NCBI GenBank assembly: GCA_025359085.1
Contig: JANYHL010000065.1
Coordinates: 1-40,577 of the forward strand
Length of the DNA stretch: 40,577 bases
Direction of reading: 5' to 3'
Source: Gammaproteobacteria bacterium
GTDB lineage: Bacteria; Pseudomonadota; Gammaproteobacteria; Burkholderiales; Burkholderiaceae_C
Shown here piece after piece: positions 10,473-40,577 of this stretch. The position numbers and the translations under genes were made by a program. The notes beneath the pieces were generated by a model. That model saw only the letters and a program-made list of their open reading frames with translations. It did not search any database and had not been told where the DNA came from. The number at the start of each line of letters is the position of its first letter. Position 1 is the stretch's first letter.

Positions 10473-10535
10473 GGAACTCTCCAAAGTCGGCGTGATTCAG
10501 CACTGAATCAACTTAGGTCGATGCGAGGGGAACGC

Positions 10536-10739: not shown

Positions 10740-10767
10740 GGTGGTCTCCAAGTAACGCTATTTGTTG

Positions 10768-10781: not shown

Positions 10782-10898
10782 TAGCCTATGTGGTGCAAGA
10801 GAACTTACCATGATCATTCACAAAAAGATACGCCTTAAAGACTAGGGAAAACACCAGCCCCAACCCAAGCCCAAGCGATGTGCACCTGCTGTCGCGCC

Positions 10899-11522: not shown

Positions 11523-11524
11523 GG

Positions 11525-13651: not shown

Positions 13652-14216
13652 GGTCTGGGCCCGGCGCTTGGAGCGGGTTCTCAATGAGGTTTTCAACACC
13701 GGCGTCAGGCGGCTGGGCCGACTGTGCCACGAAATCGGCGCTACCGGTATCAGCATCATCCCCAGGTGGTGCAGGGTGATTTTTTTCTTCTTTAAACAGA
13801 TTGAGAAACTGGGCGCTGGCCATTTGCCGCAGCATGGACTGCGGCAACGGGTCGGGCTGGGAATAGTCGTCAATGTAGATGTCCAGCCGGTCCATCACGT
13901 TGTAGTGCGGGTCGGTAAACAGCTTCTTCATGGCCGCATTGCGCACCTCAGGGGCGACACCGCGCGCGACAAAGGGCTTGAAGTCGGACTCGGCGGTGAG
14001 GCGCTGCACATCGTCCAGCGACAGCGGCGCAATCGCGGGCGAACTGGCGGGCGCGCCTGGCCCGGCAGCACCGCTCTGATTGATCGGGTCGGCGTCGGGC
14101 GCATCCACCCCAGGAACCGGCTGGGTGGCTGGTTCGTCAAGCGCTTCGTCCAGCGCCTTGCCTGCCCGCTGCGCCTGCTTGCGCTGCGACCAACGCGCCA
14201 GAAAGCCCTCAGCCAT
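13578..14216 (-). CDS. DUF3306-domain protein
   Basis: This 212-residue protein begins at the ATG at 14216 (MAEGFLARWSQRKQAQR, the usual start of this family). The frame's upstream 16 residues are unsupported. The core LSLDDVQRLTAESDFKPFVA, followed by VRNAAMKKLFTDPHYNVMDRLDIYIDDY, is the DUF3306 signature. The C-terminal third is acidic and Pro-rich, ending in about 24 residues coded inside the 5' end of the polyferredoxin gene in another frame. No enzyme motif is visible. The family occurs almost only in formate dehydrogenase clusters with DUF3305, so an assembly role is inferred. It overlaps the DUF3305 gene by eight bases. Confidence 0.88.
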   Translation of the reverse strand: MAEGFLARWSQRKQAQRAGKALDEALDEPATQPVPGVDAPDADPINQSGAAGPGAPASSPAIAPLSLDDVQRLTAESDFKPFVARGVAPEVRNAAMKKLFTDPHYNVMDRLDIYIDDYSQPDPLPQSMLRQMASAQFLNLFKEEKNHPAPPGDDADTGSADFVAQSAQPPDAGVENLIENPLQAPGPDHDHTDLRLQPNHAAGRPEPGRGAE

Positions 14217-14766
14217 GGTCAGCCCCTGATTTTTTCTCGGTACTGATCGAGGCGGGCTGGCCAAAACGGTCGCTCAAGGTGCGAAAGCTCTCCGGCCGCT
14301 TGCGCCGCTTGGGCTCCAGCACAGGGTGCGCGTCGACAAACGCCTGCAGCCAGGCCACCACCGGCGCCGGTGCCGCCACCTGCTCCACTGTTTCTTGCGC
14401 ATCCAGCCAGCGACCGGCGTCGTAGTAGCTCAGGCTCACCGCCTCGGGCTTGGCCAGGGGTTCGTCGCTGAGGCCGGCCTGGTCTTCCATGCGCCACAGC
14501 ACAAACCAGCCCGGTGCCTCGGTGCTCGCGTTGAGCTGGTAGCCCTCGACATCATCTTTGAACAATTCGACCGTGTAGCCCGGATACAGCCAGCGTTCTT
14601 CGCTATCATTTTTATACAGAAGACGGGGTGTGCGGCCAAAACCGTCCTCCTGCAGCACGACATCCGCGAGCTGCCAGCGCCAAGGTTGCCAGCGGCTGGA
14701 CGGGCCCGTAGTTTTGACGTGTTGCATGACGACAGCGACTTCAAGGGAAGGGCGAAGCTTGGGCAT
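14209..14766 (-). CDS. DUF3305-domain protein
   Basis: This 185-residue protein is taken from the ATG at 14766; an in-frame GTG at 14793 is possible and neither start has a strong ribosome-binding site. The N-terminal half (SRWQPWRWQLADVV, then RWLYPGYTVELFKDDVEGYQ and WFVLWRME) matches DUF3305. The C-terminal part ends in a basic KRRKRPESFRTLSDRFG segment. It is the first gene of the leftward formate dehydrogenase locus and overlaps DUF3306 by eight bases, so the two are surely co-translated. Function unknown; co-occurrence with fdh genes suggests an assembly or regulatory role. Confidence 0.87.
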   Translation of the reverse strand: MPKLRPSLEVAVVMQHVKTTGPSSRWQPWRWQLADVVLQEDGFGRTPRLLYKNDSEERWLYPGYTVELFKDDVEGYQLNASTEAPGWFVLWRMEDQAGLSDEPLAKPEAVSLSYYDAGRWLDAQETVEQVAAPAPVVAWLQAFVDAHPVLEPKRRKRPESFRTLSDRFGQPASISTEKKSGADHG

Positions 14767-14967
14767 AAGACTTGCAATGTAACGGATTGGCACTGTAGCA
14801 GCTGGTTCGCGCCGGAACGCCGACGGCGCGGGGCCGACATGACGTCAATCTGAGCTTGGCAAGGCTGGGGCAATCTTGCACGCCATGGCCGCGGGCAAAA
14901 GCGCGCTTACCAAGCAGCTGCGCCCGCAGGGATGCAGCGAGCGAGTGAGGAGCGGGCCCCGTCCAGG

Positions 14968-16887: not shown

Positions 16888-17081
16888 GACGACTCCTAAT
16901 ATGAAACAGCATGCGGGCGCAAGCGCCAAACCGCAACAGGCCGCGCCCCAACCTCTGCGCCAGTCGTTTGCCCTACCGCTATAACGCGGCACCCACCGGT
17001 TTCGCCACGCTCAATTACGATTGCTTGCAATTGTCGGCTACAGTCTGGGCGGCGCTGGCGTCCTCGACATTTCATCAAGTT

Positions 17082-18173
17082 TCAAGTATTTTTTGAAATC
17101 TTGATCGACGGAAACTTGGAAGAAAAGTCCTTGTTCTTGGCCGCAATTGATACCGCCACCTTGCGCGCCACTGCCTTGTAAATGCCAGCGACCTCGCCGT
17201 CGGGGTCGGACACCACGGTCGGGTGGCCGTTATCGGCCTGCAAACGAATCTGCATGTCCAGCGGCAAGGCACCCAGGTAGTCCATGCGGTAGTCAGCCGC
17301 CATCTTCTTGCCCCCATCGGCGCCGAAAATATGCTCTACGTGGCCGCAGTTGCTGCAGACATGCACGGCCATGTTTTCCACAATGCCCAGAATCGGCACG
17401 CCGACTTTCTCGAACATCTTGATGCCCTTTTTGGCATCGAGCAGCGCAATGTCCTGCGGCGTGGTGACGATCACCGCGCCGGTCATGGGCACGCGCTGGC
17501 TGAGCGTGAGTTGAATGTCGCCGGTGCCAGGGGGCATGTCGACGATCAAATAATCGAGATCGCGCCAGTTGGTTTGGCGCAGCAGTTGCTCCAGCGCTTG
17601 CGTCGCCATCGGACCGCGCCAGATCATGGCCTCGTCTTGTGCCACCAGAAAACCGATCGACATGACCTGCACGCCATAGTTTTCCAGCGGGTCCATGGTT
17701 TTGCCGTCGTCGCTCTCGGGCCGACCGTCAACGCCCATCATCATCGGAATGCTGGGGCCGTAAATGTCAGCATCAAGCAAACCGACACTGGCGCCCTCGG
17801 CAGCCAGTGCCAAGGCCAGGTTGACCGCCGTCGTGCTCTTGCCGACGCCGCCTTTGCCGGAGGCCACCGCCACAATGTTCTTGACTTTCGGCAACAATTG
17901 CACGCCGCGCTGCACCGCATGCGCCGCGATTTTCATGGTGATGTTGACCGAAACGTTGTTGACACCGGCCACCGCTTTGGCCGCCGCAATCAGGGCACTG
18001 CGAAAAGCGGGAATCTGGCTTTTGGCCGGGTAGCCCAGTTCCACGTCAAACGCCACATCACCGTCGCTGAGGGTCAGATTTCTGATGGACTTGGAGGCGA
18101 CAAAATCGGCTCCGGTATTGGGATCGAGCACACTCTTGAGAGCGTCCATCAGCGTCTGTTCTGTCACATTCAT
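17082..18173 (-). CDS. apbC: Mrp/ApbC-type iron-sulfur cluster carrier ATPase
   Basis: This 363-residue protein starts at the ATG at 18173, with AGGAG upstream. An N-terminal MIP18/DUF59-like domain (residues 5-80) precedes a P-loop NTPase with the deviant Walker A SGKGGVGKST (residues 105-114), the ADIYGPS switch and the DYLIVDMPPGTGD block. CSNC near the C-terminal third is the pair that holds a bridging [4Fe-4S] cluster in dimers. ApbC delivers clusters to apo-enzymes in the cytoplasm. Many Fe-S proteins are coded in this window, but the gene stands alone between the FecR-domain gene and csbD, so a specific link is not shown. Confidence 0.95.
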   Translation of the reverse strand: MNVTEQTLMDALKSVLDPNTGADFVASKSIRNLTLSDGDVAFDVELGYPAKSQIPAFRSALIAAAKAVAGVNNVSVNITMKIAAHAVQRGVQLLPKVKNIVAVASGKGGVGKSTTAVNLALALAAEGASVGLLDADIYGPSIPMMMGVDGRPESDDGKTMDPLENYGVQVMSIGFLVAQDEAMIWRGPMATQALEQLLRQTNWRDLDYLIVDMPPGTGDIQLTLSQRVPMTGAVIVTTPQDIALLDAKKGIKMFEKVGVPILGIVENMAVHVCSNCGHVEHIFGADGGKKMAADYRMDYLGALPLDMQIRLQADNGHPTVVSDPDGEVAGIYKAVARKVAVSIAAKNKDFSSKFPSIKISKNT

Positions 18174-18424
18174 TAATTTCTCCTGAGCCACATAGTCTAA
18201 CGAAGACAGTGTTGACCTTGTCTGACTGGGAGAATTGGGGTTGACCCCTGTTGCACCGGCACTGGTCTGGTTCTTTGCGCAGGCTGCATGGGGGCGCCAA
18301 AAAAAATACAGCGCTATGTATGCCAGCGTACAGAGAATGTCTGGACGACTGCCTAACATTAAACAGTGAGTCACAAAATGGCTCGCCCGTGTCGATATTC
18401 GTTTAACTCATTTAGGAATTCACC

Positions 18425-18631
18425 ATGAACAAGAATCAAGTCCAGGGTACCGTGAAAGACATCGCAGGCAAGGTCCAGGAAGAAGCTGGCAAATTAGTGG
18501 GCAACAAGGAGCAAGAAGCCAAGGGCATCCATAAGCAAGTCCAAGGCAAGGCAGAAAAGCGTCTCGGTGATGTCAAGGAAGTCGTCAAAGATGCCCACCA
18601 AGCGGTCAGGGATTCTGTCCACAAGCGATAA
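18425..18631 (+). CDS. CsbD-family small stress protein
   Basis: This 68-residue hydrophilic, Lys/Glu/Gln-rich protein has the CsbD pattern: MNKNQVQGTVKDIAGKVQEE near the start, then AGKLVGNKEQEAKG. It is predicted to be disordered or helical and has no catalytic residues. CsbD-like proteins are induced by general stress in many bacteria, but their biochemical action is unknown. AGGA lies nine bases before the ATG. The gene is transcribed away from apbC, with a 250-base shared upstream region. Confidence 0.92.
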   Translation: MNKNQVQGTVKDIAGKVQEEAGKLVGNKEQEAKGIHKQVQGKAEKRLGDVKEVVKDAHQAVRDSVHKR

Positions 18632-18641
18632 GCCAAGGCAG

Positions 18642-18660
18642 CGGGCAGATTGACTGCCCG
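18642..18660 (+). terminator. Hairpin after csbD
   Basis: CGGGCAG and CTGCCCG form a seven-base-pair stem with loop ATTGA, starting 11 bases after the csbD stop. A second six-base-pair hairpin (CGGGGC-AATC-GCCCCG, 18688-18703) follows. Neither is followed by a clear T tract, so termination is possible but not certain. Confidence 0.5.
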
Positions 18661-18808
18661 TCATTCGGAGCTGTCACCTCTATGGGACGGGGCAATCGCC
18701 CCGAACCGCGACGGGGGTGACGGTTATGGCCGTGGTCTGGCTGGGGGGTCGGTGAGCTGAAACTTCACCTGACTAAAATCAGCGACTGTCTTTGAAAGCC
18801 CAGCTGCC

Positions 18809-20911
18809 ATGCCACGCCAACTCTTCGTTACCACCGCCCTGCCCTACGCCAACGGCCACTTCCACATCGGCCACATCATGGAGTACATCCAGGCTGACAT
18901 CTGGGTGCGCTACCAGCGCATGATGGGCAACGCGGTGCACTTTGTCTGCGCTGACGACTGCCACGGGGCGCCGATCATGATTGCGGCCGAAAAAGCAGGC
19001 AAGACGCCGCAGCAGTTTGTGGCCGACATCGCGGCGGGCCGCAAGCCCTATCTGGAGGGTTTTCACATCGGTTTTGACAACTGGCATTCCACCGACGGCG
19101 TGGAAAACCACGAACTGGCGCAAGCGATTTACCTCGACCTGAAAGCTGCTGGCTTGATCGACACACGCGTCATCGCCCAGTTTTTTGACCTTGAGAAGAA
19201 CATGTTTTTGCCGGACCGTTTCATCAAGGGTGAGTGCCCCAAGTGCGGCGCCAAAGACCAGTATGGCGACAACTGTGAAGAATGCGGTGCGGTCTATAGC
19301 CCGACTGAATTGAAAAATCCGTATTCGGCCCTGACCGGTGGTGCACCCGTGCTGCGGGACTCAGAGCATTATTTTTTCAAGCTATCAGACCCGCGCTGTG
19401 TTGAATTTCTGGAACAGTGGACCCAAGACAGCAACCATCAAGGCCAAGCGCATCTGCAAGGCGAGGTCTACAACAAGATCAAGGAATGGCTGCTGCCGGA
19501 TGAAGACGGCAAGCGTGACCTGGGCGACTGGGACATCAGCCGTGATGCGCCTTACTTTGGCATCGAAATTCCCGATGCACCGGGCAAGTATTTTTATGTC
19601 TGGCTGGACGCGCCAATCGGCTACCTGGCCTCGCTGAAAAATCGCTTCGTCAAACTGGCGGCCGACGCTACGTTGGGCGCTCAGAACTACGACGCCTTCA
19701 TGGCCGACCCGGCGACCGAGCAGTACCACTTCATCGGCAAGGACATCATCACTTTTCACACCCTGTTCTGGCCCGCCATGCTGCATTTCAGCGGCCGCAA
19801 GACGCCCAATGCGATCTTTGTGCACGGCTTTTTGACGGTCAATAGCGAGAAAATGAGCAAGAGCCGCGGCACCGGTCTGGACCCGCTCAAGTACCTGAGC
19901 CTGGGCATGAACCCGGAGTGGCTGCGCTACTACCTGGCGACCAAGCTGACCGCACGCAACGAAGACGTGGAGTTCAGCCCGGAAGATTTCATGGCGCGCG
20001 TCAACAGCGACCTGGTCGGCAAATACGTGAACATTGCGTCACGCGCGGCCGGTTTTCTGGCCAAGCGCTTTGACGGCCAGCTGGGTGCCATCTCAAGCGA
20101 TGGAGCGGCGCTGCTGAAACAAATTCAAATTGAGCGCACCAGCATCGAGCAACTGTATGAGGGACGCGAATTTGCCAAGGCGCTGCGCGAGACCATGCTG
20201 CTGGCCGACCGGGTGAATGAGTATGTGGATGCCAACAAACCGTGGGAACTGGCCAAACAGGCCGGCATGGAGCCGCGCCTGCACGATGTGTGCACGGTCT
20301 GCATCGAAACCTTCCGGGCGCTCACGATTTACCTCAAACCGGTGCTGCCCGAACTGGCGGCGCAAGTGGAAGCGTTCTTGCAGATTGAGCCGCTCACTTT
20401 TGCCAGCATCAGCCAGCCCTTGGGCGCGGGCCACCGCATCGGCAACTACCAGCACCTGCTACAGCGCGTTGACATCAAGCAACTTCAAGCATTGTTTGAG
20501 CCTGTAGCCCCCGTGGAACCTGCGCAGACAGCTATTGAATTAATAGTACCAGGCGGTGAAGCCATCGCCCCAGAGATCGGCATGGACGACTTCAGCAAGA
20601 TCGACCTGCGCATTGCCAGGATCGTCAACTGTGAGCCGGTGCCAGGCTCCACCAAGCTGCTGCGTTTGACGCTCGACGTGGGTGAAGCGGCCACCCGCAA
20701 CGTCTTCAGCGGCATCGCCAGTGCCTACCAACCCGAACAACTGATCGGCAAACTCACGGTGTTGGTGGCCAACCTGGCGCCACGCAAGATGAAGTTCGGG
20801 ACCAGCGAAGGCATGGTGCTGTCGGCCAGCCACGCTGACCAGACAACCCACCCGGGCCTGTATGTGCTGGAACCGTTTGCCGGTGCGCAGCCTGGCATGC
20901 GGGTGCATTGA
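18809..20911 (+). CDS. metG: Methionyl-tRNA synthetase
   Basis: This 700-residue enzyme charges tRNA-Met with methionine using ATP. The class I motifs are visible: HIGH at residues 19-22 and KMSKS at 348-352. A zinc knuckle is formed by Cys143, Cys146, Cys156 and Cys159 (CPKCGAKD ... CEEC), as in the long MetG1 group. The anticodon-binding helical domain spans about 390-540. The C-terminal 110 residues form the tRNA-binding OB-fold domain ([20 protein letters not shown]), which also gives dimerisation in this group. The start ATG is supported by the usual family N-terminus ([16 protein letters not shown]). It is single and co-directional with csbD but probably not in its transcript. Confidence 0.98.
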
Positions 20912-21033
20912 CAGCAGGGGGTCACAGGTCCGACGTCGCTGACCAGCGAAGGGCCACAGCGCCGGTCTCTGCAGCCGCCACCGGCGGACACTGTCGGAGC
21001 CGACATCGCCAGGGGGGAGAGGAGTTGGCTCAG

Positions 21034-21360
21034 TCATCGCGCAAGGGCAGCTTCAAGTTGCGCTTTGTTCATCGCGGAACGTCCCGCCAGACCGCGCTGT
21101 CTTGCCTCATTGCGAAGCTGAAGCACGGTTCGCCCGCCTGGTCCTTGGTGGGATCGCAAGCCACCACGCCGACCCGCAGAGATGTCGTTGATCGAAGAGG
21201 CGCTGGCGCTCACTGATTCACCGTGCTGCGCCCGCTCCTTGTTGACGACCCGCGCCGCGATCTCTTGGGCCACAGACTCAGGCTTGCCGCCTTCTAGCAG
21301 ACTATCCTTGATATGTGCGTACTGACGTTCGCGCTTGGCGCTCCAGGCTTTTTGTGGCAT
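21034..21360 (-). CDS. Small basic protein with Rho-N/SAP-like C-terminal helix pair
   Basis: This 108-residue protein starts at the ATG at 21360 (MPQKAWSAKRERQYAHIKDS), with AGGA upstream. The N-terminal half resembles small ChaB- or plasmid-stabilisation-annotated proteins (KRERQYAHIKDSLLEGGKPE, then AARVVNKERAQHGES). The C-terminal half (TVLQLRNEARQRGLAGRSAM followed by NKAQLEAALAR) has the pattern of the Rho N-terminal/SAP helix-extended-helix fold that binds nucleic acid. No toxin partner lies nearby. It is convergent with metG. Function is unknown; nucleic-acid binding is inferred. Confidence 0.75.
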   Translation of the reverse strand: MPQKAWSAKRERQYAHIKDSLLEGGKPESVAQEIAARVVNKERAQHGESVSASASSINDISAGRRGGLRSHQGPGGRTVLQLRNEARQRGLAGRSAMNKAQLEAALAR

Positions 21361-29353: not shown

Positions 29354-31558
29354 CTAGCTGGACGCAGCCGCCACATTGGCCCGCGCCATGTGCAGTTTTT
29401 GGTAGCTGTCGATCAGGCGCTGCTGCCTGTCGAGCCCTTCCAGTTTCATGCTCGTTGGAGTCAAGCCGAAGAAGCGCACACTGCCGTCCACTGACCCCAG
29501 CACCGCATCCATCCGTGGGTTGCCAAACATCCGACGAAAGTTGACCACGTAATCGTCCAGTTCCAGCTCGTCGTCCAGCAGCACCTCGAGCACCACATTT
29601 AAAGCCTGATAAAACAATCCGCGCTCGACCGTGTTGTCGTTGTACTGCAGGAAGGCTCCCACCAGCTCTTGCGCCGCCTCGAATTGCCGCAAAACGAGTT
29701 GAATCAATAGCTTCAACTCCAGAACTGTCAGTTTGCCCCAGGCCGTATTCTCGTCAAATTCGATGCCGATCAAGGTGACGATGTCGGTGTAATCATCCAG
29801 CTCGCTAGCCTCCAATCGTTCAAGCAGTGCTTCCAGGCTTGCATCGTCGAGACGATGCAGGTTCAGGATATCGGCGCGAAACGATAGCGCTTTGTTGGTG
29901 TTATCCCAGATCAAATCCTCGACCGGATAAATTTCCGAATAACCCGGCACCAGGATGCGGCAGGCGGTTGCGCCAAGTTGGTCATACACCGCCATGTACG
30001 CCTCTTTGCCTAAGCCTTCGAGAATACCGAACAAGGTTGCGGCTTCGTCGGCATTGGAGTTTTCACCATGGCCCGAAAAATCCCACTCGACAAAATCGAA
30101 ATCCGCTTTGGCGCTGAAAAAGCGCCACGACACCACGCCGCTGGAATCGATAAAGTGTTCAACAAAGTTATTCGGCTCAGTGACGGCGTTGGACTCGAAG
30201 GTGGGCCGAGGCAAATCGTTCAGACCTTCAAAACTGCGCCCCTGCAGCAACTCGGTCAGACTGCGCTCCAGCGCCACCTCCAAGCTTGGATGCGCCCCGA
30301 ACGACGCAAACACACCGCCGGTACGCGGGTTCATCAAGGTGACGCACATCACCGGAAACTCGCCGCCCAGCGACGCATCCTTCACCAGCACCGGAAAGCC
30401 CTGTTCTTCCAGGCCCTGAATGCCGGCCAGAATGCCGGGGTATTTCGCCAGCACTTCCTGCGGCACGTCCGGCAGCGCGATTTCGCCCTCCAGAATTTCG
30501 CGTTTGATCGCCCGTTCGAAAATTTCCGACAGGCACTGCACCTGCGCCTCGGCCAACGTGTTACCGGCGCTCATGCCATTGCTGAGGAACAGGTTGTCGA
30601 TCAGGTTGGTCGGGAAATACACCACCTCGCCGTCCGACTGACGCACATACGGCAGCGAACAAATGCCACGCTGCACATTGCCGGAGTTGGTGTCGACCAG
30701 ATGCGAGCCACGCAACTCCCCATCGGGGTTGTAAATTTGCAGGCAGTATTCATCGAGAATTTCAGTCGGCAGCGCATCCTTGCGGCCAGGTTTGAACCAG
30801 CGCTCATCCGGGTAATGCACGAAGGCCGCGTTGGCAATCTCTTCGCCCCAGAACTGGTGGTTGTAGAAATGATTGCAATTGAGTCGCTCGATAAATTCGC
30901 CCAACGCCGACGCCAACGCGCTTTCTTTTGTCGATCCCTTGCCATTGGTAAAACACATCGACGAGTGCGCATCGCGGATATGCAGTGACCACACATTGGG
31001 CACAAGATTGCGCCACGAAGCGATTTCAATCTTCATCCCCAAGCCCGCCAAAATGGCCGACATATTGGCGATGGTTTGCTCCAGTGGCAGATCTTTGCCT
31101 GCAATATAGGTACTTGCTTCTGAATCGGTGTTCAGCTTCAGCAATGCCTGCGCATCGGCATCTAAATTTTCCACCTCCTCAATCACAAACTCAGGCCCGG
31201 CTTGCACCACCTTTTTGACCGTACAACGCTCGATGGAGCGCAAAATGCCCTGCCGGTCTTTGGCGGAAATATCGGCCGGCAACTCGACCTGAATCTTGAA
31301 AATCTGCTGGTAGCGGTTTTCCGGATCAACAATATTGTTCTGCGACAGGCGGATGTTGTCGGTGGGGATATTGCGAGTTTCGCAATACAACTTCACAAAG
31401 TAAGCCGCACACAAAGCGGATGAAGCCAGAAAGTAATCAAACGGCCCCGGCGCCGAGCCATCGCCCTTGTAGCGGATAGGCTGATCGGCCACCACCGTGA
31501 AGTCATCGAACTTGGCTTCCAGGCGAAGCTTGTCGAGAAAGTTGACTTTAATTTCCAT
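29354..31558 (-). CDS. OsmC-YcaO fusion protein
   Basis: This 734-residue protein has two domains. Residues 1-130 are OsmC/Ohr-like, with Cys50 in FDYFLASSALCAAYFVKLYC and Cys112 in RSIERCTVKKVV at the positions of the peroxidatic pair. Residues about 150-560 are a YcaO domain with ATP-binding signatures KGSTKESALASALGEFIERL and AGNTLAEAQVQCLSEIFERA. The last 150 residues are helical, as in E. coli YcaO. YcaO proteins activate amide backbones with ATP; the E. coli-type protein is linked to RimO-dependent methylthiolation of ribosomal protein S12, and lacks an azoline-peptide partner. The fused OsmC domain suggests a link to thiol chemistry. No precursor peptide or dehydrogenase gene is nearby, so RiPP synthesis is unlikely. 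Confidence 0.93.
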   Translation of the reverse strand: MEIKVNFLDKLRLEAKFDDFTVVADQPIRYKGDGSAPGPFDYFLASSALCAAYFVKLYCETRNIPTDNIRLSQNNIVDPENRYQQIFKIQVELPADISAKDRQGILRSIERCTVKKVVQAGPEFVIEEVENLDADAQALLKLNTDSEASTYIAGKDLPLEQTIANMSAILAGLGMKIEIASWRNLVPNVWSLHIRDAHSSMCFTNGKGSTKESALASALGEFIERLNCNHFYNHQFWGEEIANAAFVHYPDERWFKPGRKDALPTEILDEYCLQIYNPDGELRGSHLVDTNSGNVQRGICSLPYVRQSDGEVVYFPTNLIDNLFLSNGMSAGNTLAEAQVQCLSEIFERAIKREILEGEIALPDVPQEVLAKYPGILAGIQGLEEQGFPVLVKDASLGGEFPVMCVTLMNPRTGGVFASFGAHPSLEVALERSLTELLQGRSFEGLNDLPRPTFESNAVTEPNNFVEHFIDSSGVVSWRFFSAKADFDFVEWDFSGHGENSNADEAATLFGILEGLGKEAYMAVYDQLGATACRILVPGYSEIYPVEDLIWDNTNKALSFRADILNLHRLDDASLEALLERLEASELDDYTDIVTLIGIEFDENTAWGKLTVLELKLLIQLVLRQFEAAQELVGAFLQYNDNTVERGLFYQALNVVLEVLLDDELELDDYVVNFRRMFGNPRMDAVLGSVDGSVRFFGLTPTSMKLEGLDRQQRLIDSYQKLHMARANVAAASS

Positions 31559-32222: not shown

Positions 32223-33295
32223 ATGAGCAGGAAAGCAAAACTTTATACTGCAGTGATGGGTACAGCCTTACTGGCCCTGGCCGGTTGCCAATCGGTGCAA
32301 GACAAGGCATCGCCTGACTCTCTGGTCGCCACATTCACGAACACCGCCCCGACTTGGCGGCCGGTGCGTCTGATCCGGTCTGGTCCAAGGCAAGCCCGCT
32401 GTCGGCGGCCCTGATCGGCGGTGCCAACTTTGGTGCCAAGCCCGGCGAAAAAGGCGAGAGCACCGTCACCCTGAAGGCGGCCTATACCAATGACATGCTG
32501 TACATGCTCATCCAATACAAGGACCCGACCAATTCGGTCCGTCGCGGCCCTTATCAAAAGCAGGCGGATGGCTCCTGGAAGAAACTCAAAGACCCGGCTG
32601 ACAAGGGCGGTGATGACAACGTGTATTACGAGGACAAGTGGGCCATGCTCTGGCCAACCAACGCGGCCACGGCCCAACGGTTTGACAAGGAAGGCTGCGC
32701 CATGGCCTGCCATGAAGGCGAGACCAAGCCCTACGGCAACAAGTACACCAACCTTCCAGGCCAGTTGCTCGACATGTGGCACATGAAAGGCCAGCGCACA
32801 GGACCTTTGGGCTTTGTGGATGACCAGTACACCGACGACACACGTTATGACGCCAAGACGGCACCCAATGCCGGCCGCAAGGGCGATCCGGGGCCAACTG
32901 GCGGCGAATACACCAATGTCGCGCTGGTGAACGGCACACCGGCCTTCATGGCGCGTGACGCCAAGGCCGCCAATGCGGGCGGCACTTACTACATCAAGAA
33001 AGGCGAAGAAGTGCCGTTTGACGACAGCAAGTTCAAAGTTGGTGATGAAGTGGCGTCGATCATCATCAATCCGCTCACGGGTACTGACCGCGGTGACGTG
33101 CGCACTGCCAACACGTATGCCAATGGCATGCACACCTCGGTGGTCAGCCGCAAGCTGGTGACCGGCAGCAAGTTCGACGTGCAGTTCGCCGACATGAGCT
33201 CGCGCTACGGATTTGGCTTTGCCGCGTTTGACAACGCCCAGGTGCGCCACGCCACCTCGGATGATCCGATGTACCTGGTCTTCGGCAAGAAATAA
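32223..33295 (+). pseudogene. Ethylbenzene-dehydrogenase-type haem-binding lipoprotein, one-base frameshift
   Basis: The gene starts at 32223 (MSRKAKLYTAVMG) with a lipoprotein leader ending LALAGC, so the product would be a periplasmic or membrane-anchored lipoprotein. The first frame runs to SLVATFTNTAPT, then a missing base near 32354 shifts it. Reading continues in another frame as LAAGASDPVWSKASPL through to the stop at 33295, giving about 356 residues in all. The main part matches EB_dh haem-binding (gamma-subunit-like) domains: YTNDMLYMLIQYKDPTNSVR, then YYEDKWAMLWP and the late SSRYGFGFAAFD. A CAMACH motif (32696-32713) could attach haem c. Restoring one T (ACTTTGGCG for ACTTGGCG) would join the frames. 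It could be a recent inactivation or a sequencing error. It stands alone between an FNR-like site and a terminator. Confidence 0.82.
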
Positions 33296-33792: not shown

Positions 33793-34311
33793 CTACGCAA
33801 TCCGCCGACGCACCGCGCTCAGGATGCCGCGCAAGATATCAAGCGGTGGGGGCGGGCAGCCCGGCACCACCCAATCGACCGGGATCACGTTCGACACGCG
33901 GCCACAACTGGCATAACTCTCGCCAAAAATACCGCCGTCGCAGCCACAGTCGCCCACGGCCACCACCATCTTGGGTCCAGGAATGGCGTCATAGGTGCGT
34001 TTGAGCGCCGTGACCATGTTGCGTGACACCGGGCCGGTCACCAGCAGCATGTCCGCATGGCGCGGGCTGGCAACAAACTTGATGCCCAGGCCCTCGATGT
34101 TGTAGTACGGGTTGCCCAGCGCATTGATTTCAAGCTCGCAGCCGTTGCACGAGCCGGCATCCACCATGCGAATCGCCAGCGACTGGCCCAAAATGGCCAG
34201 CACTTCAGCCTGCAGCCGCCCCATCTCGTTCGCGACTTCCTCCCCGATATCGGGTGCGGGCTCGGTGCGAATGCCGTTCTTGGCAATTTGCTTGACGATG
34301 CGCCAAATCAT
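33793..34311 (-). CDS. HyfI/NuoB-like small subunit, hydrogenase-4-related complex
   Basis: This 172-residue cytoplasmic-side subunit carries the proximal [4Fe-4S] cluster of group-4 hydrogenases and complex I. The ligands are visible: GSCNGCE (Cys55, Cys58), GDCGC (Cys122 or Cys124) and PGCPPPP (Cys152). The segments KFVASPRHADMLLVTGPVSR and AIPGPKMVVAVGDCG are typical of HyfI/HycG. The ATG overlaps the large-subunit stop as ATGA, so a HyfH-type ferredoxin gene is missing between them. It is the last gene of the operon. The cluster ligands being intact while the partner lacks NiFe ligands means electrons can reach it but their use is unclear. Confidence 0.93.
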   Translation of the reverse strand: MIWRIVKQIAKNGIRTEPAPDIGEEVANEMGRLQAEVLAILGQSLAIRMVDAGSCNGCELEINALGNPYYNIEGLGIKFVASPRHADMLLVTGPVSRNMVTALKRTYDAIPGPKMVVAVGDCGCDGGIFGESYASCGRVSNVIPVDWVVPGCPPPPLDILRGILSAVRRRIA

Positions 34312-35867
34312 AAATCGTGGCCCGAGTAGCTGAGGTTGAACGACTTGTTGATGAGCGGAAAGTCCGGCACGATATTGCCGATGATGGCGTGCTCCAGCAC
34401 CGGCCAGTTCTGCCAGGACGGGTCATGCAAATGGCAACGACGAATGCGCTGCTCGCTGCTGGCGCCATTGAGCTCCAACGCCACAAAAATCTCGCCGCGC
34501 CAGCCTTCGACCCAACCCACGCCGCGCGACGCGTGCGCGGGCAAGACCAGCTCCTGGCGCAAGGGGCCGGCCGGCAGACCCGCCAGAATCTGTTTGATCA
34601 AGCGCAGCGACTCCATCACTTCGTCAAAACGCACTGCCACCCGCGCGGCCACATCACCGTTGCGATGCGTGGCCATCTTGACCTGCAAAACGTCATAGGG
34701 CGCGGCCGCATGGTCGCAGCGCAGGTCCCAGGCTTGCGCACTGGCTCTTCCCGCCAGGCCGGTCAGCCCCAGTTGCGCTGCCAGCGCCGGGCTGACGCGA
34801 CCGGTGGTCATGAAGCGGTCCTGCAAGCCCGCATGCTCCTCATAGATTGAGCGCAGGGTCTGCACCTCGTGCGCCACGGCATCACATTGGCGGGTCAGCT
34901 GGTCAATCTGGGCGCCATGAATGTCATGCGTCACACCGCCGGGCAGCACGCAGTCCATCATCAAGCGGTGTCCAAACATGTCCTTGGACCAACGCAGCCA
35001 GTCTTCGCGCAGGCGTGAGAATTGCGCCAGGCCAAAGGCGAAGGCGGCGTCGTTGCCCAAAGCGCCCAGATCGCCTAAGTGATTGGCGACGCGCTCGCGC
35101 TCGAGCATCAGGGCGCGCATCCACAAGGCGCGCGGCGGCACCGCGCAGGCACTGGCCGATTCCAGTGCCATGCAATAGCCCCAGGCATAGGCCACGGTGG
35201 AGTCGCCCGACACCCGGCCGGCCAGGCGATAGGCCAGCAAAGGGTCCAACTGCGTCATGCGCTGTTCAATGCCCTTGTGCGTGTAACCGAGCCGCTGTTC
35301 CAGGCGCAGCACTTTTTCACCGACCACCGAGAAGCGGAAATGCCCCGGCTCGATGATGCCCGCATGCACCGGGCCGACCGCAATTTCATGCACGCCATCG
35401 CCTTCGACGCGCATGAAAGGGTAATTGATCAAGTCAGAATCCGGAAAGGACGCGGGTGCCTCAGCCCCATGGCGCAGCGGGAAATAATCCAGCGGCCAGG
35501 CGCCGTGGTTCAGCCACGGACGCTGGTCTTTGCTGCCCTTGGTCAGAATGCCTGACATGTCAGCGGCGGCGCGCTGCATGCGGGCGGCAGCGGGGAAGAA
35601 AGGCAGCAAGTCGGGGTAAGTCGGTTGCTCACCGTCAAGCGGAAACTCCAGCCAGAGCAAGCCCTCCAGCACCACAAAGGCCGCGCAGGCGACCGGCTGC
35701 GGCCCGTCGCCCAGCCCGGCCCCGCCCCACATGGCCAGCAAGCGCCCGCCGCCCTCGCGCACGGCGGCAGCGCCGGCGCGCCATTCGTCCACGCTGACCT
35801 GCGCATGCCAGATCGGCACCGGGGCCATCAAGCGCAGCAATTCGACATCGAAGCCAGTAATCTTCAT
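34308..35867 (-). CDS. HyfG/NuoCD-like large subunit lacking NiFe-binding cysteines
   Basis: The start is the ATG at 35867 with GGAGG upstream (518 residues). Residues 1-140 resemble the NuoC/HyfG N-domain. From about 160 follow the NuoD/HycE-like segments VGPVHAGIIEPGHFRFSVVG and EQRLGYTHKGIEQRM. At the first nickel motif, where hydrogenases have RVCGICxxxH, this protein has GRVSGDSTVAYAW (217-229). At the C-terminus, in place of DPCxxC, it has VPDFPLINKSFNLSYSGHDL. So neither CxxC pair exists and no NiFe centre can form. It resembles the hydrogenase-related Ehr proteins, not complex I NuoD, given the hyf-type neighbours. It follows HyfF by four bases and overlaps HyfI. What it reduces or whether it still binds quinone is unknown. 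Confidence 0.92.
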   Translation of the reverse strand: MKITGFDVELLRLMAPVPIWHAQVSVDEWRAGAAAVREGGGRLLAMWGGAGLGDGPQPVACAAFVVLEGLLWLEFPLDGEQPTYPDLLPFFPAAARMQRAAADMSGILTKGSKDQRPWLNHGAWPLDYFPLRHGAEAPASFPDSDLINYPFMRVEGDGVHEIAVGPVHAGIIEPGHFRFSVVGEKVLRLEQRLGYTHKGIEQRMTQLDPLLAYRLAGRVSGDSTVAYAWGYCMALESASACAVPPRALWMRALMLERERVANHLGDLGALGNDAAFAFGLAQFSRLREDWLRWSKDMFGHRLMMDCVLPGGVTHDIHGAQIDQLTRQCDAVAHEVQTLRSIYEEHAGLQDRFMTTGRVSPALAAQLGLTGLAGRASAQAWDLRCDHAAAPYDVLQVKMATHRNGDVAARVAVRFDEVMESLRLIKQILAGLPAGPLRQELVLPAHASRGVGWVEGWRGEIFVALELNGASSEQRIRRCHLHDPSWQNWPVLEHAIIGNIVPDFPLINKSFNLSYSGHDL

Positions 35868-35871
35868 CAGC

Positions 35872-37326
35872 TCAACCTCCCAGCATGCGCGCGGCTTCGA
35901 CATACCAGGCGTTCAGATAAGGCGGAATGTACAGGCCCAGCACCAAGCCCAGCCCTAGGTGTACAAACACCGGCACCAGGGCTGGCGGGTGCGCCAGCGG
36001 CTTGAGAGAGGTCTCGCCAAACACCATCGGCAACACCCGGATCAGCATGGAGGCAAAGGCCACACCGAGCGACACAAACAGAAATGGCGCCGCCCAGGGC
36101 TGCTCGCGCATGGCAGTGGTCAAAATCAAAAACTCGCTGGCAAACACGCCAAACGGCGGCATCCCCAGAATCGCCATCACGCCCAGGATCAGGCCCCAGC
36201 CGATGGTTGGATTGACCTTGATCAGGCCGCGAATCTCGCTCATGATCTGCGTACCGGCTTTTTGCGTGGCGTGCCCCACTGCAAAGAAGATCGCCGACTT
36301 GACCAGCGAATGCACCGTCATGTGCAACAGACCGGCAAAGTTGGCCACCGGCCCGCCCATGCCAAAGGCAAAGGTGATCAAGCCCATGTGCTCGATCGAC
36401 GAATAAGAAAACATGCGCTTGACGTCTTTTTGCCGCGAGATGAAGAAGGTCGCCACCACCACCGACAGCAGGCCAAAACCCATCATGAGCTGGCCCGCCA
36501 GTTGGTTATGCAAGGCGCCATCGGTCAGCATCTTGCAACGTAAGAGGGCGTACATCGCCACATTGAGCAACAAGCCCGACAGCACGGCCGACACCGGCGT
36601 CGGGCCTTCGGCATGCGCATCGGGCAACCAGCTGTGCAAGGGCACCATGCCGACCTTGGTGCCGTAACCAATCAGCAAAAAAGCAAACGCCAGCGTGATG
36701 ATGGACGGGTCGAGCTGGCCCTTGATCACATCCAGATTGGTCCACAGCAGCGTGGCACCTTGCGGGCCGAGCACTTTTTCTGCTGCCATGTAGAGCAACA
36801 CGGTGCCAAACAGGGCCTGCGCAATGCCCACGCCGCACAAGATAAAGTATTTCCAGGCCGCTTCCAGACTGGCGGCCGTGCGGTACACGCTGACCAGCAA
36901 CACCGTGGTGAGGGTCGCGGCTTCCATCGCCACCCACAGGATGCCCAGGTTGTTGGTGGTGAAGCCCAGCAGCATGGTGAAGCTGAACAACTGGTACATG
37001 CTGTGGTACAGGCGCATGCGCGGCGGCGTCATCTTGCCGTGGTCCTGCTCGATGCGCATGTACGGACGCGAAAAAATGGCCGTTGTCATGCCGACAAAGG
37101 CGGTGAGCGTGACCATGAACACATTCAGCGGGTCGATGAAAAATTGGTCGTGCCAGACCAGGATCGGACCGTCCGCAATGATCTCGGCGGTGAGCACGCA
37201 GGCCGCCAGAAAGGTGCCCAGGCTGAAGGCCACATTGATATCGCGGGCATAAACCCGGTGCCCGATCAGCGCCAGCACCGCTCCGCCCAGCAAAGGGAAA
37301 CCCAGGACAAAGAACAAGGTGGACAC
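35872..37326 (-). CDS. HyfF-like proton-channel membrane subunit
   Basis: This 484-residue membrane protein of the NuoL/M/N (Mrp antiporter-like) family has about 13-14 hydrophobic segments. The conserved elements are LGILWVAMEAATLTTVLLVS with the key glutamate (Glu before AATL), and GYGTKVGMVPLHSWLPDAHA, EGPTPVSAVLSG with its lysine and following histidines. KRMFSYSSIEHMGLITFA and HMTVHSLVKSAIFFAVGHAT give the second-half charged residues. The start codon is a GTG at 37326, two bases after the HyfE stop. It lies upstream of the large subunit. In the family these subunits move H+ or Na+ during electron transfer. Confidence 0.94.
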   Translation of the reverse strand: MSTLFFVLGFPLLGGAVLALIGHRVYARDINVAFSLGTFLAACVLTAEIIADGPILVWHDQFFIDPLNVFMVTLTAFVGMTTAIFSRPYMRIEQDHGKMTPPRMRLYHSMYQLFSFTMLLGFTTNNLGILWVAMEAATLTTVLLVSVYRTAASLEAAWKYFILCGVGIAQALFGTVLLYMAAEKVLGPQGATLLWTNLDVIKGQLDPSIITLAFAFLLIGYGTKVGMVPLHSWLPDAHAEGPTPVSAVLSGLLLNVAMYALLRCKMLTDGALHNQLAGQLMMGFGLLSVVVATFFISRQKDVKRMFSYSSIEHMGLITFAFGMGGPVANFAGLLHMTVHSLVKSAIFFAVGHATQKAGTQIMSEIRGLIKVNPTIGWGLILGVMAILGMPPFGVFASEFLILTTAMREQPWAAPFLFVSLGVAFASMLIRVLPMVFGETSLKPLAHPPALVPVFVHLGLGLVLGLYIPPYLNAWYVEAARMLGG

Positions 37327-37328
37327 GG

Positions 37329-37988
37329 TCAGTCTTCCTTGAGCGTTTCGAGGTTGTGAATGTCCAGGCTGTCGAACTTCTCCCGAATCTGGAACATGAA
37401 CACACCCAGAATCAGCACGCCCACCAGCACATCGAGCGCAACACCAAATTCAACAATCATCGGCATGCCGTTGGTGACCGTGGTGGCGGCAAAGATCAGC
37501 CCGTTTTCCATCGACAAAAAGCCGATCACCTGTGGCACCGCTTTGGAACGGGTGATCATCATCAGGAACGAGAGCAGCACGCAGGCCAGCGCAATACCCA
37601 GCGAGCCGCCCGCCATCGACGTGGACAGACGCGAGATCGGCAGGGCCAGACTGAAGGAAAAAATCACCAGCGCAATCCCCACCAACATGGTGGTCGGGAT
37701 GTTGATCAGCGTGTCGACGTCCCAGCGCACGTTGAGCTTGCGGATGACGCGGTGCAGCATCCACGGAATGAAAATAACCTTGAGCAGCAGGGTCAGGGCG
37801 GCTGACACGTAAAGGTCCGGTTGATGCGTGACATAAGCGAGCAGCACCGACGCCGCCACCAGCGCGGCGCCCTGGATGGTGAACAGATTGATCAGCGAGA
37901 CAATGCGCCGCTGCGAGATCATGGCGAACGACAGCATCAGGATCAGCGTCGCAAACAAATTGATCAACTGGGGCGCTAACTTGATCAT
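37329..37988 (-). CDS. HyfE-like membrane subunit
   Basis: This 219-residue hydrophobic protein is taken from the ATG at 37988, where the family start MIKLAPQLINLFATLILMLS begins; the longer frame upstream is the shadow of the hyfC-like gene. It has about six to seven membrane helices and ends in a cytoplasmic QIREKFDSLDIHNLETLKED. HyfE resembles NuoK fused to other small subunits, and acts in proton-path coupling (SMENGLIFAATTVTNGMPMI has the family glutamate). The ATG overlaps the HyfC stop as ATGA. The next gene starts two bases after its stop, so all are co-translated. Confidence 0.92.
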   Translation of the reverse strand: MIKLAPQLINLFATLILMLSFAMISQRRIVSLINLFTIQGAALVAASVLLAYVTHQPDLYVSAALTLLLKVIFIPWMLHRVIRKLNVRWDVDTLINIPTTMLVGIALVIFSFSLALPISRLSTSMAGGSLGIALACVLLSFLMMITRSKAVPQVIGFLSMENGLIFAATTVTNGMPMIVEFGVALDVLVGVLILGVFMFQIREKFDSLDIHNLETLKED

Positions 37989-38935
37989 CCGACCCCCAGC
38001 AAGATGTTGACCAGCAGCCCGATCACGGCCAATAAAAAGGCCGTGCCCAGAAACTCCGGCACACGAAAGATCCGCATCTTGGCGCTCAAGGTCTCGATCA
38101 GGGCCAGAAGCACACCGCCCAGGGCCAGCTTGACAATGAGCACGGGCAGCGCCAGCAACAGCGCCAGTGGCGCATGGGCCTCGGCCACCCCCCAGGGGAA
38201 GAACAGCGCCAGGCCGATGCAGGAGTACGCGAACAACTTCAGGCTGGCCGCCCACTCCAGCAGCGCGAGGTGACGCCCCGAATACTCCAGAATCATGGAC
38301 TCGTGAATCATGGTGAGTTCCAGATGGGTGTCCGGGTTGTCCACCGGCACCCGTGCGTTCTCGGCCAGCGACACCATGGTGAACGCCACCCCGGCCACCA
38401 GCAGGCTGGGGTAGATGGCCAACTCCCGATGCGCCAGCGTTTCGACAATGGTGGTGAGCGAGGTCGAACGCGAGATCATGGAGGCACAAAACAGCACCAT
38501 CAGCAAGGCCGGCTCAGCCAGGAAGCCGACCAGCATTTCCCGGCGCGCACCGAGCGAGCCAAAAGCCGTTCCGACATCCATTGCCGCCAGGGAGATGAAC
38601 ACCCGCGCCAGGGCAAACAAGCCCACCAGCGCAATCGCATCGGCGGCGGGCGACAAGGGCAGGTCGGTGGACAAGGTCGGGATGATGGCACTGGCCAGCA
38701 GCATGCAGCCGAAGACAATGTAGGGTGCCATGCGAAACAGCAGTGAGGCGTGCTCGGCCAGCACCGACTCCTTGTTAAACAGCTTGTGCAGCACGCGGTA
38801 GGGCTGGAGCAAGCCCGGCGCCGACTTGTTCTGCAGGCGAGCGCGCCATTGGTTGACCCAGCCTGTCAACAGCGGCGCCATGACCAGCGCCATCACAATC
38901 GCCATCAGTTGCGACAGCAGACCGAGCCAGCTCAT
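37985..38935 (-). CDS. HyfC/NuoH-like membrane subunit
   Basis: This 316-residue integral protein has about eight helices and resembles NuoH/HycD/HyfC: LQNKSAPGLLQPYRVLHKLF near the start, AENARVPVDNPDTHLELTMI in the middle (the conserved charged loop that contacts the large and small subunits), and IHESMILEYSGRHLALLEWA next. It anchors the peripheral arm to the membrane, and in complex I forms part of the quinone cavity. The ATG overlaps the HyfB stop as ATGA, and its stop overlaps the HyfE start. Confidence 0.95.
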   Translation of the reverse strand: MSWLGLLSQLMAIVMALVMAPLLTGWVNQWRARLQNKSAPGLLQPYRVLHKLFNKESVLAEHASLLFRMAPYIVFGCMLLASAIIPTLSTDLPLSPAADAIALVGLFALARVFISLAAMDVGTAFGSLGARREMLVGFLAEPALLMVLFCASMISRSTSLTTIVETLAHRELAIYPSLLVAGVAFTMVSLAENARVPVDNPDTHLELTMIHESMILEYSGRHLALLEWAASLKLFAYSCIGLALFFPWGVAEAHAPLALLLALPVLIVKLALGGVLLALIETLSAKMRIFRVPEFLGTAFLLAVIGLLVNILLGVG

Positions 38936-40577
38936 TGCTTCACCACCAAAAGCACCACAATCAAGGTCACAAAGCTGTACATCAGGTAGACCGCAATGCG
39001 CCCTTGCTGCAACAGGCCCACCACTTTCGAGATGCGTTCCACCAGTCGTGCAATCGGCAGGTAGAGCCAGTACCAGAGCGGGTCTTCAACCGTCACCCGG
39101 TAACTGGGCTGCTCGTCGAAGGGCGAGGGCAACTCGCGCTTCATGCGAAACATGGGGTCGAAAATCTGCCGGATCGGCTGCCCGAAGCCTTCGGCCGAGT
39201 CTTGCATGCGGGCGTCTTGCCAGGGGTAGCCGCAGTCCCACGCGGGTGCGCGCCGCATACGGCCGCTGTAGAGGCGGCGCACCAGCAGGTAGGTCAAGGC
39301 AAAACTGAAAATGACACCCAGCAGGAAGATCGCTGGCGCATAGCTGGCGCGCTCAACGCTCACGGGCACCAGCAGCCAGCCACTGGCCGCCACCGTCTTG
39401 GCCAAACCAGCCGACACCAGCAAGTGGGTCACTGGATCAATCAGGGCAATCACCTGGTTCGGGAACAGCCCGAGCAGCACACAGCCCGCCGTCAGCCAGA
39501 GCATTCCCACGCGCTCCCAGGTGCCGGCGTCGTGCGCCCCGGCGAGTTTTTCTTCCCGCGGTTGCCCCAGGAAGATGACGCCAAAATACTTGACCATGGT
39601 GTAGCCCGACAGCGCGGCAACCAGCGCAATCAAGGCTGCCATCACCGGCACCAGCATATTGAGAACCGAACTCGGCAACCCGGAGGTGAACAAGAAGCTT
39701 TGCAGCAGCAGCCACTCGGCGATGAAGCCCCCAAACGGCGGCAAACCGGCACAGGCCAGCACACCCACCAGAGTCGGCCAGGCGACCCAGGGCATGTAGC
39801 GAATCAACCCGCCCAATTTGCCCAGGCTGCGCTCACCGGTGGCGTGAAGCACGGCACCGGTGCTGCAGAACAGCAGGCTCTTGAAGAACGCGTGGCTAAG
39901 CAGGTGATACAGCGCCGCCGTCAGGGCCAGCGCCGCCAGCGCGTGCATGCCATAGCTTGAGAACAGCAGCGACAAACCGAAACCGGCGCAGATCAAACCG
40001 ACGTTTTCAATCGAGGAATAGGCCAGCAGGCGCTTCATTTCGACCTGGACGGTCGAGAAAACAACGCCGAACAGCGCCGTGGCCAGGCCAGTCGCCATCA
40101 ACATCACCCCCCACCACCAGATTTTGGTTTGCAGCAGGTCAAAGGACACCCGCAGGATGCCGTAGAGCGCAATCTTCAGCATCACGCCGCTCATCAGGGC
40201 CGACAAGGGAGACGGCGCGGCCGGATGCGCCTCCGGCAACCAGGTGTGCAACGGCAAGATACCGGCCTTGGCGCCAAAGCCAAACACCGCCAACACAAAA
40301 GCCACCGAGCCCCAGAATGGCGACAAATGCTGGGCCCGCATGTTGGCAAAAGTGTAGTCCCCGGTATTGGCCTGCAACACGCCAAAACACAGCAGAATGC
40401 CCAAGGCGCCGATATGGGCCACCAGCATGTAGAGGTAACCGGCAAAGCGGATTTCGGGAATGCGGTGGTTGGCAATGACCAGAAAGAACGAGGAAAAGGC
40501 CATGGTCTCCCAGACCACCATGAAGGCATAGGCATCGTCAGCGATCACCACCATGGCCATGCTGGCCAGAAAAATAT
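38932..40577 (-). CDS. HyfB-like proton-channel membrane subunit (5' end outside window)
   Basis: The reading frame is open through the right edge of the window; the ATG at 40560 is internal, since the sequence before it (IFLASMAMVVIADDAYAF) continues the family pattern. HyfB proteins are about 670 residues, so some 120 N-terminal residues are missing. The visible part has the NuoL/M family blocks GFGAKAGILPLHTWLPEAHP, SPLSALMSGVMLKIALYGIL, KRLLAYSSIENVGLICAGFG and HLLSHAFFKSLLFCSTGAVL with their conserved lysines and histidines. The 3' part, about 100 residues after CGYPWQDARMQDSAEGFGQP, matches the HyfB/HycC C-terminal tail. It is the first visible gene of the operon. Confidence 0.94.
   Translation of the reverse strand, partial: IFLASMAMVVIADDAYAFMVVWETMAFSSFFLVIANHRIPEIRFAGYLYMLVAHIGALGILLCFGVLQANTGDYTFANMRAQHLSPFWGSVAFVLAVFGFGAKAGILPLHTWLPEAHPAAPSPLSALMSGVMLKIALYGILRVSFDLLQTKIWWWGVMLMATGLATALFGVVFSTVQVEMKRLLAYSSIENVGLICAGFGLSLLFSSYGMHALAALALTAALYHLLSHAFFKSLLFCSTGAVLHATGERSLGKLGGLIRYMPWVAWPTLVGVLACAGLPPFGGFIAEWLLLQSFLFTSGLPSSVLNMLVPVMAALIALVAALSGYTMVKYFGVIFLGQPREEKLAGAHDAGTWERVGMLWLTAGCVLLGLFPNQVIALIDPVTHLLVSAGLAKTVAASGWLLVPVSVERASYAPAIFLLGVIFSFALTYLLVRRLYSGRMRRAPAWDCGYPWQDARMQDSAEGFGQPIRQIFDPMFRMKRELPSPFDEQPSYRVTVEDPLWYWLYLPIARLVERISKVVGLLQQGRIAVYLMYSFVTLIVVLLVVKQ

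Follow-up and report, generated by a model that had tools for sequence, protein, structure and literature searches.

The DNA studied here, referred to as the window, is the 40,577-nucleotide contig JANYHL010000065.1 (assembly GCA_025359085.1) of a gammaproteobacterium assigned to the order Burkholderiales. Six genes on the minus strand, hyfB-C-E-F-G-I, fill its last 6.8 kb. Their product is best explained as an energy-converting hydrogenase-related (Ehr) complex, a relative of hydrogenase-4 and complex I that makes no hydrogen. The genes are as follows.

hyfB, 38932..40577, minus strand: antiporter-like subunit whose 5' end is lost at the contig end (NF005086, 820 bits, cut-off 667)
hyfC, 37985..38935, minus strand: NuoH/HycD-like membrane subunit (PF00146, 129 bits)
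hyfE, 37329..37988, minus strand: small membrane subunit (NF008556, 92.6 bits, below the cut-off of 136)
hyfF, 35872..37326, minus strand: antiporter-like subunit with a GTG start (NF005045, 893 bits, cut-off 543)
hyfG, 34308..35867, minus strand: large subunit of 519 amino acids with NuoC-like and NuoD/HycE-like parts and no NiFe ligand
hyfI, 33793..34311, minus strand: small subunit with one [4Fe-4S] site and a hydrogenase-type CxxC

This gene order, given in the initial annotation, was borne out by the open reading frames (ORFs) and the family matches. The ATGA overlaps described there are present at three of the five junctions (B-C, C-E and G-I); gaps of 2 nt and 4 nt are found instead at E-F and F-G, respectively. 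The window is the entire contig C119 of a genome of 3.16 Mb in 149 contigs (97% complete), and the start of hyfB lies on contig C99, which begins with an exact copy of the window's final 79 nt. The HyfB protein joined across the two contigs has 674 amino acids. The initial annotation had also proposed a look upstream of position 40577 for hyfA or hyp genes, and inspection of translations, without a family search, revealed no such ORF upstream of hyfB on C99. The ORFs seen there, again from translations and with no family search, are presumably a dCTP deaminase and a BMP-type lipoprotein. The operon lacks HyfA, HyfD, HyfH and HyfJ of Escherichia coli Hyf. The reported lack of maturation genes was upheld for HypD (PF01924), which is absent from the whole genome, the other hyp genes and hycI-like proteases not having been searched for. 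The sole match to PF00374 in the genome is this HyfG, below the cut-off, and there is no other NiFe large subunit.

HyfG carries GRVSGDSTVAYAW at the former first CxxC, and its COOH-terminus reads NKSFNLSYSG. By alignment, Cys241, Cys244, Cys531 and Cys534 of E. coli HycE correspond to Ser220, Ser223, Ser513 and Gly516 of HyfG, so that none of the four cysteines is left. The protein has seven cysteines in total and CxxC nowhere, and the NiFe ligands, noted at the outset as missing, have therefore been lost rather than moved. Residue counts in relatives are given below for the readable rows of an alignment, with totals that vary by position, and the 183 Ehr relatives include a few identical or same-genome rows. 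A cysteine at position 513 or 516 was found in 0 of 175 relatives. The two former ligand sites and the segment of HyfC that appears to face them lie at these positions.

Former first CxxC of HyfG, 35199..35210, minus strand: Ser220-Gly221-Asp222-Ser223, placed by alignment
Former DPCxxC of HyfG, 34320..34337, minus strand: Asn511-Leu-Ser513-Tyr-Ser-Gly516, placed by alignment
HyfC segment THLELTMIHE...EYSGRH, 38270..38326, minus strand: contains His204, His211, Arg221 and His222, placed by alignment

Five residues of HycE, Glu193, Arg478, His284, Glu437 and Arg395, are thought to pass protons to the NiFe site (PMC9474812; this and the other papers given by PMC number are cited from the available portions of their text). 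All five are retained in HyfG, as Glu173 (175/176 relatives), Arg457 (177/177), His263 (176/176), Glu416 (176/176) and Arg374 (172/176, with Lys in the other four). The canopy residue Asp529 of HycE, called strictly conserved in the same paper, is replaced by Asn511 (173/175). Asp222, located between the former cysteines, is invariant (176/176); the corresponding residue is Ile in E. coli HycE and HyfG and Met in the NuoD of the window's own genome. Lys508 is likewise invariant (175/175), the residue being Gly in all three of these proteins. At the positions of the quinone residues His38 and Tyr87 of complex I (Nqo4), HyfG has Ile172 (175/176) and Gly221 (173/176), and the suggestion in the initial annotation that the acceptor is possibly quinone thus gains no support from these residues; the pocket's own conserved polar set may leave room for a different quinone site.

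On the HyfC side, His204 (164/164), His211 (165/165) and Arg221 (163/165) are conserved in relatives, as is His222 (156/165, with Tyr in eight). E. coli HyfC and HycD have Glu, Gln, Ala or Ser, and Gly at these four positions, and NuoH of the window's genome aligns a His at position 211. The alignment suggests that the segment is the loop between transmembrane helices (TM) 5 and 6, which in the MBS complex helps to shape the catalytic chamber (PMC7684303). Given that residues on both sides of it are strictly conserved, the rebuilt pocket looks like a working site rather than a decaying one. This fixed HyfG/HyfC signature with the hydrogenase proton relay retained, as read from the alignments, is new here. 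AlphaFold modelling gave a good pLDDT of 87.6 with one alignment (A2) and a poor one of 69 with a narrow alignment (A1). In a fold comparison the 50 matches listed were chains of formate hydrogenlyase and complex I, and MBS and MBH chains were absent among these.

Both antiporter-like subunits had been described as keeping their Lys, Glu and His pattern. HyfB does so, with the TM5 Glu, TM7 Lys, TM8 Lys, TM11 His/Lys and TM12 Glu present, the TM8 Lys being Asn in 4 of 45 relatives. HyfF keeps all of the antiporter residues except the TM8 Lys, a position occupied by Asn in the window, in E. coli HyfF and in each of 45 relatives. The proposal of an ion-pumping complex is consistent with these conserved residues, which are its basis.

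The cluster ligands Cys55, Cys58, Cys122 and Cys152 of HyfI are present with the hydrogenase-type CxxC spacing, as first reported, and the four cysteines are found in every readable relative (178/178, 178/178, 177/177 and 176/176, respectively). In the window hyfG is followed directly by hyfI, and no NuoI/HyfH-like ferredoxin gene is present in the operon. Among 68 hyfG-hyfI pairs from 80 named loci, the gap is less than 300 nt in 66, which leaves no room for a hyfH gene, and the two longer gaps showed no ferredoxin motif. The ORF calling used yields shadow ORFs in GC-rich loci and in this survey masked one ferredoxin-bearing ORF, that of L026, which the next search recovered. When E. coli HyfH and HyfA were used as queries against every ORF of 191 loci, matches came from 3 of 183 Ehr loci: that in L049 is a gene of formate dehydrogenase type (FDH3-like) 3 kb away, and those in L026 and L039 are small subunits encoded by a second Hyf-like operon next to the first. 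In L075 a further gene with a ferredoxin motif lies outside the operon, 4 kb away. In the sister-type loci L157 and L161 and in the neighbouring copy of L026, a ferredoxin domain is present at the NH2-terminal side of the small subunit; HyfI of the window (172 amino acids) has no such fused domain. Because HyfA and HyfH are missing from the operon, the predicted [4Fe-4S] site of HyfI is the sole recognisable redox centre of the encoded complex, a feature that is new here. HyfA is also missing from a Hyf-like complex of one strain described previously (PMC4136832).

The second Hyf-like type has the gene order C-E-F-G-I-B in L157, L158 and L161, and these loci, like the upstream copies of L026 and L039, have no Asp222 in HyfG, yet have His204 in HyfC. 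The upstream copy of L039 ends in NKSFELCYSCTDR, with the COOH-terminal cysteine pair kept. Tandem head-to-tail Hyf-like operons were observed in L019, L039 and L096/L154.

Ehr complexes are described as group-4-hydrogenase-like, without NiFe-binding residues and with no assigned function (PMC6349859, PMC10284858, PMC7894505). The Ehr-type identity and the loss of hydrogenase chemistry, both put forward initially, are supported by the lost ligands and the absence of HypD, and the operon combines Mrp/antiporter-like membrane subunits with a small and a large subunit. Nothing in it excludes membership of the family known from Geobacter (EhrA/C/L/S), comammox Nitrospira and Margulisbacteria; neither the pocket signature nor the linkage to carbon genes described below was met in the available portions of the Ehr papers. 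A quick tree built from 155 rows placed the window and the other Ehr rows, 144 in all, in one clade separate from HycE and HyfG (SH-aLRT 100), with long-branch warnings outside the Ehr clade, and the window grouped with Rhodoferax-type sequences (98). The relatives in the tree belong to Nitrospirota, Myxococcota, Acidobacteriota and Pseudomonadota, with no named Geobacter EhrL reference among them. A protein search gave at least 8000 matches at E 0.001, which is a count of homologues and not of Ehr proteins, and identity was at least 68% among the 120 matches listed. Ehr operons are widespread and are often labelled as hydrogenase in databases; a record titled Bordetella parapertussis that is a metagenome-assembled genome (L053) has a partial Ehr operon (F, G and I), and its title may be misassigned.

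The complex differs from E. coli Hyf and Hyc not only in the lost ligands and the absent subunits but also in Asn at the canopy position and in the new Asp222 and Lys508 of HyfG and His and Arg residues of HyfC. With complex I it shares the membrane and connecting subunits and the fold, whereas it lacks the quinone residues, the NADH module and NuoI and has CxxC rather than an adjacent CC in the small subunit. MBS of Pyrococcus furiosus is likewise a hydrogenase-derived complex without a NiFe site, but it is described as having MbsN with two clusters, a three-Cys proximal cluster and no proton-transfer pathway (PMC7684303), whereas the complex of the window has four cluster cysteines, the retained relay and no NuoI-like subunit. 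NDH-1MS and DAB2 also share complex-I-related membrane subunits with the window, carbon-fixation gene neighbours being found only in some of its relatives, and DabA (PF10070) of DAB is absent from the window's genome.

The strongest contextual clue found, also new here, is a repeated linkage of genes for SulP and gamma-type carbonic anhydrase (CA) upstream of hyfB. We sampled 250 genomes of the window's order, 62 of which contain Ehr at a threshold of E 1e-137; G004, G086, G131, G163, G176 and G193, with best HyfG matches of E 1e-50 to 1e-92, were not counted as Ehr. Sixty-three loci of the order were fetched, of which 57 had a readable region upstream of hyfB and six were set aside; the window itself (G000) and G010, with a split gene, are outside the 57-locus sample. 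Seventeen of the 57 loci encode SulP, a CcmM-like gamma-CA or both on the strand of hyfB and no more than 1 kb upstream of it, with gaps of 14-844 bp. Among 561 neighbours, 17 of the 26 SulP or gamma-CA genes sit in this slot, compared with an expectation of approximately 1.0 from the other nine. The 17 loci span 5 of 22 families. With named loci included, 22 of 112 labelled rows have the slot, and seven state changes were found on the HyfG tree; the linkage events thus traced appear few but repeated. SulP and gamma-CA were each sought with one reference protein, and divergent members may be missed (the match in L191 scored only 76 bits).

Family models confirmed SulP with a STAS domain in L106, L143 and L148 (Pfam) and L104 (NCBIfam), as well as in the named loci L033, L054, L062 and L087. 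The gamma-CA proteins are nearest to CcmM and carbonic anhydrase models, with scores below the cut-offs, and the seven that were aligned all share the pattern VVIH...AHRSIVH, the histidines of which we take to be the gamma-CA metal site. In L106 and L112, SulP precedes B-C-E-F-G-I, which are followed by three genes on the opposite strand and then by RuBisCO, approximately 6 kb past hyfG. Of the intervening genes in L106, one encodes a weak carboxysome-CA-like domain (29.8 bits, cut-off 21.5) another an EAL/GGDEF protein and the third a regulator resembling CbbR (272 bits, short of the cut-off of 450). A CitMHS/TrkA_C-domain transporter gene was seen between SulP and hyfB in L059 and between SulP and gamma-CA in L143. 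In Acidithiobacillus caldus, a hyfBCEFG cluster lies beside a beta-CA gene and another hyf cluster has carbon-fixation genes and a formate dehydrogenase (FDH) a few genes upstream, both clusters having been read as hydrogenase (PMC3826726). Our literature search, the coverage of which mostly excluded subscription journals, turned up no paper in which Ehr is proposed to act in carbon uptake.

At the genome level, RuBisCO was counted at E < 1e-118, with 20 of 112 PF00016 matches excluded as weak and RuBisCO-like. Of the 62 Ehr genomes 44 have it, compared with 48 of the remaining 188 (p = 3e-10), and kinship is allowed for only in the family-stratified test given below. RuBisCO was found in the genomes of 16 of the 17 loci with the slot and of 25 of the 40 other loci (p = 0.022), a comparison for which independent pairs number two to three and have no power. 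Beta-CA is missing from 22 of 62 Ehr genomes versus 36 of 188 others (p = 0.014), and from 6 of 6 genomes with the upstream gamma-CA versus 16 of the 56 remaining Ehr genomes (p = 0.0012); when restricted to genomes with RuBisCO, the latter comparison becomes 6 of 6 versus 8 of 38 (p = 0.0004).

The reading that we favour, with confidence and doubt in balance, is a proton-coupled, one-cluster Ehr ion pump that in some autotrophic relatives is linked to the supply of inorganic carbon. A soluble carrier would most likely pass electrons straight to the [4Fe-4S] cluster of HyfI. To judge from the conserved residues, proton-coupled chemistry would occur at Asp222, Asn511, Glu173 and Arg457 in the former NiFe pocket between HyfG and HyfC, and homology suggests that protons would move through HyfC, HyfF and HyfB, either driven by this chemistry or driving it. 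In some autotrophic relatives, the complex would serve inorganic-carbon supply together with SulP and CA, a role suggested by the observed gene linkage. By analogy, we favour for autotrophs a partnership like that of NDH-1MS, in which a relative of complex I uses ferredoxin to drive the hydration of CO2 (PMC13144422), but with separate gamma-CA and SulP. The donor, the acceptor and the direction are inferred, as would be any link to carbon in the window's genome.

Several observations weigh against this reading. No carrier gene is linked to the operon, and neither the donor nor the acceptor was identified. The SulP proteins of the linked loci bear a STAS domain, and the 'sulfate permease' model gives them a higher score than the BicA model does, so that sulfate may be what they transport; the argument that SulP adjoining CA carries bicarbonate was made for a STAS-free clade, and the STAS-bearing clades include a proven sulfate transporter, BicA and YchM (PMC6458275). 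The slot linkage is not phylogenetically independent, with only two to three independent pairs. Outside the order, among 31 loci with at least 1.5 kb upstream of hyfB (of 41 phylum loci, 40 were fetched, all but G297), SulP occupies the slot in one (L191) and gamma-CA in none. The association of Ehr with RuBisCO is not significant when stratified by family (229 genomes, p = 0.15), and 18 of the 62 Ehr genomes of the order have no RuBisCO. Ehr and DabA are not associated in the order (12/62 versus 37/188). The window's genome has a beta-CA, yielded neither RuBisCO nor DabA in genome searches, and has no SulP or gamma-CA beside its operon. Given these absences and the rarity of the linkage outside the order, we assign the carbon link to a subset of the autotrophic relatives, and for the window's genome it is a hypothesis.

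DabA was considered as a partner and rejected, the single nearby case being L014, in which a DabA gene and NuoM/NuoL-like genes lie downstream of the Ehr operon on the same strand (13565-21337). The gene before hyfB outside the order is often a helix-turn-helix (HTH) regulator rather than a carbon gene; taken together, the loci gave 16 matches to HTH-cupin and 23 to Xre. Small Xre or HTH-cupin genes stand directly before hyfB, often abutting it, in L077, L079, L080, L083, L084 and many of L165-L204, and are probable regulators of the operon, mostly outside the window's order.

Among other explanations, a ferredoxin:quinone oxidoreductase, or the reverse, with its own non-complex-I quinone site and with carbon neighbours incidental to autotrophy, seems unlikely. 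Kinship with complex I, the retained cluster ligands and the sister type with a ferredoxin domain fused to the small subunit are in keeping with it, as are transhydrogenase-like (SthA) and Rnf-like genes downstream of hyfI in L189 (1628-5967) and L183 (12570-17788). The Rnf linkage is limited to these two loci, however, and Ile and Gly in place of His38 and Tyr87, the lack of a NuoI-like subunit and the concentration of SulP and gamma-CA genes in one slot argue against it. Unlikely, too, is a bolder view of the Ehr clade as a third energised CO2/bicarbonate machine besides NDH-1MS and DAB, in which the NiFe pocket would have become a site for handling CO2 or been linked to one, acting with SulP and gamma-CA in autotrophs and providing bicarbonate for biosynthesis in heterotrophs like the organism of the window. 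We consider rather unlikely a stricter form of energised CA, in which the pocket itself (Asp222, His204, His211 and His222) would hydrate CO2, driven by proton motive force as in DAB2 or by ferredoxin as in NDH-1MS. The new conserved His/Asp/Lys set at the old NiFe place, the SulP, gamma-CA and RuBisCO neighbours in relatives, the genes downstream of the operon in L014 and the more frequent lack of beta-CA in Ehr genomes fit such an enzyme. Yet CO2 hydration needs no Fe-S cluster, and the cluster is conserved; the site is predicted from residues alone, with no metal or geometry shown; and the window's genome has a beta-CA and no RuBisCO. The linked gamma-CA also retains its presumed metal-site histidines, which would make a second hydrating site redundant. 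That the linked SulP proteins are of the STAS-bearing kind slightly lowers the probability of both this form and the third-machine view.

Margulisbacteria have been proposed to possess a formate-linked complex, FDH-Ehr, and proteomics of Geobacter gives a hint of one (PMC6349859, PMC7894505), and the FDH near one A. caldus hyf cluster (PMC3826726) agrees with it. The window's contig itself contains an FDH3-like operon (5361-13873, minus strand) that encodes alpha, beta (NF038355, 341 bits) and gamma cytochrome b subunits, a TorD-like chaperone and a protein with several 4Fe-4S domains. That FDH lies approximately 20 kb from the hyf operon and has its own cytochrome b subunit, however, and when used as the sole query it found a match in the fetched flanks of 1 of 183 Ehr loci (L049, 67-69 bits) versus 3 of 8 control loci. 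A formate partner as a general rule is not supported by this search, and we regard this explanation of the window's complex as very improbable. The chance that the complex is a still active [NiFe] hydrogenase of a formate hydrogenlyase, as implied by database names like 'Ni,Fe-hydrogenase III large subunit', is as good as nil: the sequence refutes it, with all four ligands lost and HypD absent, whereas the hydrogenase-type loci L159, L160, L162 and L163 show all four cysteines and HyfH. Loss of the active-site ligands would also be expected of a decaying relic, an idea to which we give practically no credence, since the frames are open in the window and the pocket and relay are strictly conserved in relatives of several phyla, which are signs of strict purifying selection. 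Together, the pocket signature, the absent ferredoxin subunit and the linkage to SulP, CA and RuBisCO make the function of Ehr a concrete, testable question: has a hydrogenase-derived proton pump been adapted to carbon uptake?

Two other genes of the window were noted. A gene of the ethylbenzene dehydrogenase (EB_dh) family (32354-33295, plus strand) lies just downstream of hyfI on the opposite strand, and an OsmC/YcaO fusion protein encoded at 29354-31558 on the minus strand matches TIGR03549 over its full length.

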